From a virus, in IMG/VR virus record IMGVR_UViG_3300032289_000562, positions 1 through 32,850 of that record: 32,850 nt of DNA, one strand, 5' to 3'. Shown here in pieces: positions 29,607-32,508 of the stretch. Below the pieces are notes generated by a model. It was not told where the DNA came from, ran no database searches, and saw only the letters and a list, made by a program, of their open reading frames with translations. Position numbers and translations under genes: made by a program. Position 1 is the first letter of the stretch, and every line of letters begins with the position of its first letter.

Positions 29607-29693
29607 AAAAAAAAAGACTTAGGCGGAACTCTCACCGTTTCCGGTGTTGGCGGACTGGGCAATACCAGCAGAGTTCCATCTAAGTCTTATTGC
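29607..29693 (-). ncRNA. Structured RNA element: three-way junction with GAAA tetraloop, possible pseudoknot and U-tract
   Basis: Minus-strand RNA, from 29693 down: GCAAU, then P1 AAGACUUAG (29688-29680) pairs with CUAAGUCUU (29622-29614). P2 GGAACUCU (29677-29670) pairs with AGAGUUCC (29632-29625). Hairpin a: CUGG, loop UAUUGC, CCAG (29668-29655). Hairpin b: CACCG-GAAA-CGGUG (29646-29633). A run of U follows at once (29615-29607). Loop UAUUGC is complementary to GCAAUA at the 5' edge (29693-29688). GNRA loop and U-tract set the strand. It may be a riboswitch/attenuator, a terminated small RNA, or the RNA part of a mobile element with the nuclease gene. No family recognised. Confidence 0.6.
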
Positions 29694-30887: not shown

Positions 30888-31057
30888 TTACATCAAACAA
30901 CGCAGAGGAAATCATTGACGATTGCAAAAGCAGACATAACCCTGCCATTTATCTAGAAATTTATATAAAGCATCTTTGCCGCTGGATAGAAATCCAAGAT
31001 GAGCGTATCGAGTGGCACAAAGAACAACTGAATCAAATTTATAAGGACGCAAAATGA
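30884..31057 (+). CDS. Small protein upstream of ERF (57 aa)
   Basis: Reads MITSNNAEEIIDDCKSRHNP then IYLEIYIKHLCRWIEIQDER. ATGA-coupled on both sides, including with the annealing-protein gene. Aromatic and Trp-containing helix. Function unknown. Confidence 0.55.
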   Translation: MITSNNAEEIIDDCKSRHNPAIYLEIYIKHLCRWIEIQDERIEWHKEQLNQIYKDAK

Positions 31058-31656
31058 AAGAGATAGCAACAGCACTGGTCAAAGCACAAAAGGCTTTTGG
31101 CCCTGCACTCAAGACATCGACTAACCCACACTTTCGCAGCAAGTATGTGGACTTGTCAGGCTGCATCGAGGCAGTCATTGACAGCCTCAACAGCGCAGGG
31201 ATTGCGCTTGTGCAGCGCACCTTTCAGGACAGCACAGGCGTGACAGTAGAGACTGTTTTTATCCATGAGTCTGGCGAAGTTCTGGAGTGCGGCAAGTTGC
31301 ACGTTCCAGCGGGCAAGCAAGACCCGCAGGGGTATGGGTCAGCTTTGACCTATGCACGGCGCTATAGCCTCATGGCGGCCTGTGGGATAGCTCCAGAGGA
31401 CGATGATGGCAATGCAGCATCTCGCGGCCCTCGCATTGCAGCAGCAAAGACTGAATTGGTGTCACCAGGGCAAACGAACAAACTTGCTGTAGTGGCGCAG
31501 GCAATCAATGAGCGCATGGCAGCAGATGATGCTATCGGCGCTCTTGGTGAGTACCAAGGCATCGTTGATGCTGAGGAAAAAGTAGCACTGTGGGGAATGC
31601 TTGACAGCAAGACCCGTAGCGCAATCAAAAAGCAATCTGAACTTTCAAAGGGTTAA
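31054..31656 (+). CDS. erf: ERF-family single-strand annealing protein
   Basis: A 200-aa protein. Shows the family markers NPHFRSKYVDL (24-34), VPAGKQDPQGYG (84-95), SALTYARRYSL (96-106), and GIAPEDDDGN (111-120). ERF proteins anneal complementary single strands in phage recombination. The C-terminal 70 residues are helical and variable, as usual. Followed directly by the SSB-like gene, the usual functional partner. Confidence 0.9.
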   Translation: MKEIATALVKAQKAFGPALKTSTNPHFRSKYVDLSGCIEAVIDSLNSAGIALVQRTFQDSTGVTVETVFIHESGEVLECGKLHVPAGKQDPQGYGSALTYARRYSLMAACGIAPEDDDGNAASRGPRIAAAKTELVSPGQTNKLAVVAQAINERMAADDAIGALGEYQGIVDAEEKVALWGMLDSKTRSAIKKQSELSKG

Positions 31657-32016: not shown

Positions 32017-32508
32017 ATGATTACTCAAGAGCGTCTAAAAGATTTGTTTGACTACCAAGACGGGCAATTAGTTAGAAAAATTAGTCGAGGAAGAGGAGAA
32101 AAAAGCGTTAGATGGAAAGCTGGGACTCCGTTGGGTCACTCATCAAAAAATGGATATAAATTAGCAGGCGTGGATTATGTTTTATATAAATTGCACAGAT
32201 TGATTTGGCTTTGGCATTACGGAGAATTTCCTGAAAACCATTTAGACCATATTGACGGGAATCCAGCAAATAATCGCATTGAAAATTTAAGAAATGCAAC
32301 AGATTCCCAAAATATGCAAAATCAAAGAAAAGCCAGAATCAACAATAAACTAGGAATCCAAGGAGTTTATAAAGTAAATAACCGCTTTAGGGCTGTTTTA
32401 ACAACAAAAGGCAAATCTAAGCATATTGGGTATTTCCCAACAGCGGAAGAGGCGCATCAAGCCTACATAATGGAAAAAAGAAATTCTCACAGTTTTTCAA
32501 CTATTTAG
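32017..32508 (+). CDS. HNH homing endonuclease with AP2-like DNA-binding domain
   Basis: A 163-aa protein. N-terminal LHRLIWLWHYGEFPENH then LDHIDGNPANNRIENLR give the H-N-H core (H78, D80, N86, N90). Residues of about 113-150 (GIQGVYKVNNRFRAVLTT, KGKSKHIGYFPTAEEAHQAY) resemble an AP2 domain, the usual DNA-binding partner. The gene is clearly more AT-rich than its neighbours and sits between SSB-like and MazG-like genes with gaps on both sides, in an operon where overlaps are the rule. Hence a likely insertion. Confidence 0.85.
   Translation: MITQERLKDLFDYQDGQLVRKISRGRGEKSVRWKAGTPLGHSSKNGYKLAGVDYVLYKLHRLIWLWHYGEFPENHLDHIDGNPANNRIENLRNATDSQNMQNQRKARINNKLGIQGVYKVNNRFRAVLTTKGKSKHIGYFPTAEEAHQAYIMEKRNSHSFSTI

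Follow-up and report, generated by a model that had tools for sequence, protein, structure and literature searches.

Does a short gap in front of a phage nuclease gene encode a functional RNA, and what would such an RNA control? The question is raised by positions 29607-29693 of the window, the whole 32,850-nt stretch of the viral record IMGVR_UViG_3300032289_000562 analysed here. From the letters alone, the original prediction had placed a compact RNA upstream of a T5orf172 nuclease gene: an interrupted 17-bp stem, two hairpins in a three-way junction, a GAAA loop, a U-tract and a possible pseudoknot between GCAAUA and UAUUGC. The architecture was likened to riboswitches, ribozymes or terminated small RNAs, and no known family was recognised.

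Strand and architecture of the element

All parts of the proposed fold are present on the minus strand, and the interval holds a real structure. Its limits were drawn too short: the RNA starts about 20 bases further upstream, and the hairpin P0 (29712-29698), its loop, a second pseudoknot (PK2) and the -10 box (29724-29719) had been missed. The leader RNA has a total length of about 105 bases and opens with the 5-bp hairpin P0. Read along the minus strand from 29724 to 29595, the -10 hexamer TAGAAT is followed by P0 (AUCCC-UUGGCG-GGGA), whose conserved loop UUGGCG (29707-29702) is the 5' strand of PK2, then by AAUA and by GCAAUA (29693-29688), the 5' strand of the pseudoknot PK1, which abuts the stem P1 with zero linker. 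The 5' strand of P1, AGACUUAGAUGGAACUC (29687-29671), and the bases UG lead into hairpin P2 (CUGG-UAUUGC-CCAG, 29668-29655) with the 3' strand of PK1 as its loop (29664-29659). After UC, the three-way junction contains CGCCAA (29652-29647), the 3' strand of PK2 and partner of the P0 loop. Hairpin P3 (CACCG-GAAA-CGGUG, 29646-29633) with its GAAA loop, a single A and the 3' strand of P1, GAGUUCCGCCUAAGUCU (29631-29615), complete the fold. P1 comprises 17 layers including one A·C mismatch, and its base is the stem of a predicted intrinsic terminator with a U9 tract (29615-29607). Directly 3' of this tract, the Shine-Dalgarno sequence AGGA (29606-29603) precedes the ATG of the T5orf172 gene.

The minimum free energy of a 121-nt minus-strand stretch was -41.6 kcal/mol (z = -3.75), and none of 200 shuffles was as stable. 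The plus strand also folded beyond dinucleotide shuffles (z = -4.1), so that folding energy alone gives no strand choice. The minus strand was chosen because promoter, U-tract, the use of G·U pairs (90 G·U versus 12 A·C cells) and the covariance-model scores of the window element (115 bits on the minus versus 28 bits on the plus strand) agree. A role at the DNA level, as an origin or primosome site, is disfavoured by the excess of G·U over A·C, the promoter and the U-tract. Upstream on the minus strand, a 46-codon reading frame (29868-29728) ends inside the spacer of the leader's promoter, and a transcript from upstream could therefore also enter the element.

Relatives in phages and bacterial genomes

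Searches with patterns and covariance models recovered at least 121 distinct sequences of the element, almost all of them on phage contigs. A 19-base stem pattern hit 13 viral contigs, a pattern of P2 plus junction at least 119 stretches (mostly genuine on inspection), and variant patterns added more viral contigs; such patterns bias the sample toward conserved cores, and the real diversity is greater. Counted as combinations of element and flank, there were at least 109 members of type A and at least 28 of type B, the two types of PK2 described below. The members outside phage contigs belong to one Polynucleobacter prophage and four other genomes. In about 800 Burkholderiales-type genomes, the covariance model R1, built from alignment A1, detected the Polynucleobacter prophage (L136/L139), the variants L141 and L142 and a type-B genome (L147); the same model yielded no further members in a 398-genome sample of the phylum. 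A pattern scan contributed a betaproteobacterial MAG contig (L131). The hosts, where known, are Burkholderiales-type bacteria.

BLAST searches of a phage collection returned a single true member, the uncultivated Manatee Spring phage MW202462/MW202544. Matches in Vibrio phage ICP1 and in Acinetobacter were chance similarities of about 22 bases, a BLAST search of the element against plasmids gave no match, and pattern matches in Aeromonas, Nocardiopsis and others were dismissed as chance since they lacked P0, P1 and the U-tract. In the public annotation of MW202462, the hypothetical protein UOF77143.1 (33654-33896; L002:817-1059) is drawn antisense to the element, and no gene is marked at the replication reading frame that actually follows it.

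The element was present in 38 of the 39 phage records searched, as a single true copy in 37 of the 38. Two phages, L195 and L063, contain type A together with type B (L195:7546-8063 and L063:121-2562). In L195, type A stands before a small HNH-like gene (by eye) and type B before a DUF1376-like gene; the small gene lies between the two elements, as if an endonuclease cassette carried its own leader.

At the gathering threshold of Rfam 15, neither the window element nor 12 other loci matched a family, IsrK and C4 included, and at E ≤ 10 the best score was 17 bits against thresholds of 62-80, with nothing relevant among the matches. No description of the RNA was found in the openly accessible journal literature. 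The assignment to no known family, made in the original prediction, was borne out.

Covariation of helices and pseudoknots

Compensatory changes in homologues had been proposed as a check, and many were found. Pairs were counted on alignments built without structure information, A1 with 49 members and A3 with 69 diverse members of types A and B. In A1, 99.5% of the pair cells were standard pairs, and 310 cells showed double-sided compensation versus 74 ± 11 in shuffled alignments; moving the partners by 1-3 columns left 18-33 such cells. A3 was 97.1% paired, with 539 compensatory cells versus 145 ± 14, and slid controls were near 40% paired. Covariation was seen for P0, P1, P3 and PK1 in A1 and for P2 and PK2 in A3. 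The few conserved unpaired positions of both alignments are located around the junction.

Two-sided changes affected 15 of the 16 pairs of P1, and its length of 17 layers was constant in all 121 distinct members; P3 and the linker between P0 and PK1 differ in length among members. P2 occurs as CUGG/CCAG, CCGG/CCGG and CAGG/CCUG. For PK1, 44 distinct combinations of strand and loop were recorded with 41 loop sequences; 28 combinations were fully complementary in fixed register, compared to 7% expected when loops were re-dealt, and most of the remaining ones pair after a one-base shift (by eye). PK2 exists as type A (UUGGCG/CGCCAA) and as type B (UUGGUC/GACCAA, 18 of the 69 representatives), in which two adjacent pairs differ together. 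The support for PK2 amounts to one deep event, A versus B, and is weaker than that for PK1, which has changed more often. On the evidence of covariation, the fold with PK1 and PK2 is demonstrated, and the architecture originally likened to riboswitches, ribozymes and terminated RNAs is upheld; for self-cleavage, the ribozyme option, there was no positive evidence. The element does have the stem and U-tract of an ordinary terminator, and an origin of its internal hairpins by chance had been named as a possible refutation. With the compensatory cells of A3 far above the shuffled value, two covarying pseudoknots and at least 121 distinct homologues, this explanation is refuted and retains a negligible probability.

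A coarse A-form rigid-body scan, which is a crude and rough model, allowed PK1 and P1 to coexist up to a P1 of 16-17 bp, but not at 18 bp or more. The scan agrees with the fixed length of P1 and suggests a taut ring of P1, P2 and PK1 at the base of the terminator. A model in which PK1 and P1 strictly exclude each other had first been favoured because PK1 abuts P1 without a linker; this model is weakened, as the coarse geometry permits both at the observed length of P1.

Promoter, terminator and spacing to the first gene

In 121 of 135 members a -10 box occurs 3-10 nt before P0 (116 at 5-7 nt), versus 14% in shuffled upstream sequence; the -35 region across members is a weak TTG. The sigma70-like promoter of the window (29747-29719) consists of a -35 box TTGAGC (29747-29742), a 17-nt spacer and the -10 box, and its predicted transcription start falls approximately on the first base of P0. 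A U run of at least five follows P1 in 130 of 137 members, and the start codon lies at a median of 11 nt past the U-tract, within 6-16 nt in 112 of 128 members. This distance of about 11 nt leaves no space for a second promoter, and the downstream genes are therefore placed on the readthrough transcript. The layout, a structured leader between promoter and gene that ends in a terminator stem with a U-tract, is of the attenuator type.

A device that shields the replication mRNA from degradation at its 5' end and leaves the ribosome site accessible, with only occasional termination, would likewise start at +1, be highly stable (-43 kcal/mol) and maintain a constant distance to the ribosome site. 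Yet protection would require neither two pseudoknots nor a P1 of strictly fixed length, and a U6-U9 tract that directly adjoins the base of the stem is the hallmark of intrinsic termination, which makes such a stabiliser or translation aid very unlikely.

In seven members, representing about three lineages, the U run is shorter than five. Four of these (L141, L142, L151 and L158) have no adjacent promoter either and keep the whole fold, and the fold must there act beyond adjacent termination. The variant lineage (L141:1501-1600, L142, L151:2032-2131, L158:5767-5866 and L165:7800-7899) precedes HNH/AP2-type endonuclease genes. A short hairpin GGUCU..AGACC, noticed by eye, overlaps the 3' end of P1 in this lineage and may be a different expression platform.

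Genes associated with the element

The first gene of the window (29595-29239, minus strand) encodes a 118-aa T5orf172/MUG113 (GIY-YIG-like) nuclease (Pfam PF10544, 1.6e-11; PF13455, 3.4e-17). The second (29270-28515, minus strand) encodes a DUF1376 primosomal or O-like replication-initiation protein (Pfam PF07120, 5.7e-20; PHROG primosomal, 1.5e-42, and O-like, 2.3e-20). At 35 hand-picked, diverse loci, the first genes were mostly HNH, GIY-YIG or T5orf172 endonucleases or primosomal and replication-initiation proteins; some were ParB-like (by eye), Rha or SNF2. The position upstream of a T5orf172 gene is true of the window and incidental to the element, as relatives mostly precede a replication gene or another endonuclease, and a specific tie to this nuclease was rejected. 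The genes upstream of the element run in the same direction in some phages and divergently in others. On the plus strand of the window, the divergent early genes include an Erf-like annealing protein (31054-31656) and an HNH endonuclease (32017-32508).

Discussion

The best explanation of these comparative data, to which we assign about an even chance, is a cis-acting attenuator, a leader with regulated readthrough in front of a phage replication operon. RNA polymerase would use the sigma70-type promoter and begin transcription with the first base of P0. In the nascent RNA, P0, P2, PK1 and PK2 would form, then P3, and P1 would close last, at the RNA exit channel, where together with the U-tract it would act as an intrinsic terminator; this would lie about 105 nt into the transcript, and the first start codon follows about 11 nt later. 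The strand of PK1 would continue into the base of P1 and grip the loop of P2, tightening the P1/P2/PK1 ring, and the tension of the pseudoknot would fall on the same pairs on which termination depends. A trigger could then tip the balance between terminated and read-through RNA and set the expression level of the replication genes. Because the first genes differ, this trigger is probably on the host side, either RNA polymerase itself or another host factor or state. In support of attenuation, every helix including both pseudoknots co-varies, and phage records carry one copy almost throughout. Against it count the four members with the full fold and neither U run nor adjacent promoter, and the scarcity of conserved bases outside the helices, a trait that most metabolite aptamers do not share. 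Nor did the analysis find an alternative antiterminator pairing.

The fold might instead bind its own RNA polymerase and make it resistant to its own U-tract and to later terminators of the leftward operon, in the manner of the put RNAs of phage HK022. Those RNAs have about 70 nt, two stem-loops and no pseudoknot and occupy two sites per phage; putL follows PL closely and exerts its effect on the zinc-binding domain of polymerase beta-prime (PMC9378689). The present element also begins at a promoter, needs no conserved phage protein and retains its fold in variants devoid of the U-tract. It differs from put in size, structure and copy number, R1 gave zero matches to the HK022 genome (NC_002166) up to E = 10, and retention of the U-tract in nearly all members would be left unexplained. 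Such an action on RNA polymerase is unlikely on balance, but it is a serious rival despite the structural difference.

Tentatively, and at well below even probability, the element could represent a phage regulatory RNA of a new class: its double pseudoknot, wrapped around the terminator stem as a taut ring, would let folding coupled to polymerase or ligand gate the replication operon directly, possibly as a second, independently evolved case of RNA-only antitermination besides HK022 put. A widespread structured RNA that had not been catalogued before occupies the switch point for DNA replication in these phages, and covariation defines its secondary structure almost completely, both pseudoknots included, as the basis for a mutation scheme. 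Very few examples of RNA-only control of phage transcription are known; with a family of more than 100 members and a reachable prophage in Polynucleobacter sp. UK-Kesae-W10, the question becomes directly testable.

Among known systems, the ZTP, fluoride and preQ1 riboswitch classes are terminator-type leaders with pseudoknots. The element resembles them as a cis leader whose pseudoknots are tied to an intrinsic terminator, with ribosome site and gene next, but it is unmatched in Rfam, conserves few unpaired bases, shows no common metabolic pathway downstream and is so far known from phages only. With IsrK of Gifsy-1 and the C4/CI-type RNAs of phages P1 and P4 it shares the order of promoter, structured RNA, terminator and readthrough into phage genes, whereas sequence and structure do not match and no complementary target sites were identified; CI of P4 acts on the leader of a replication operon. 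The isrK locus has its own promoter, a 5' end sealed in a stem, a terminator and then the gene (PMC4825925). A corresponding dual function, with the terminated RNA of about 105 nt as a stable trans-acting small RNA and the readthrough product as mRNA, would fit this layout, and the orthogonal PK2 types, co-occurring in L063 and L195, would suit pairing in trans. PK2, however, is nearly invariant with two types only, PK1 varies solely together with its own pairing partner, the pattern expected of intramolecular pairing, and the Rfam models of IsrK and C4 were unmatched, so we regard this dual function as quite unlikely. Like HK022 put, the element is compact, belongs to an early phage leader and occupies the 5' end of its transcript, with no evident phage protein; its length of about 105 nt, four helices, two covarying pseudoknots, terminator and single copy set it apart from the published put structure, which has no U-tract, and with no R1 match in HK022 membership in the put family was rejected. 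Of these systems, HK022 put is the closest functional counterpart of the element and IsrK the closest in layout.
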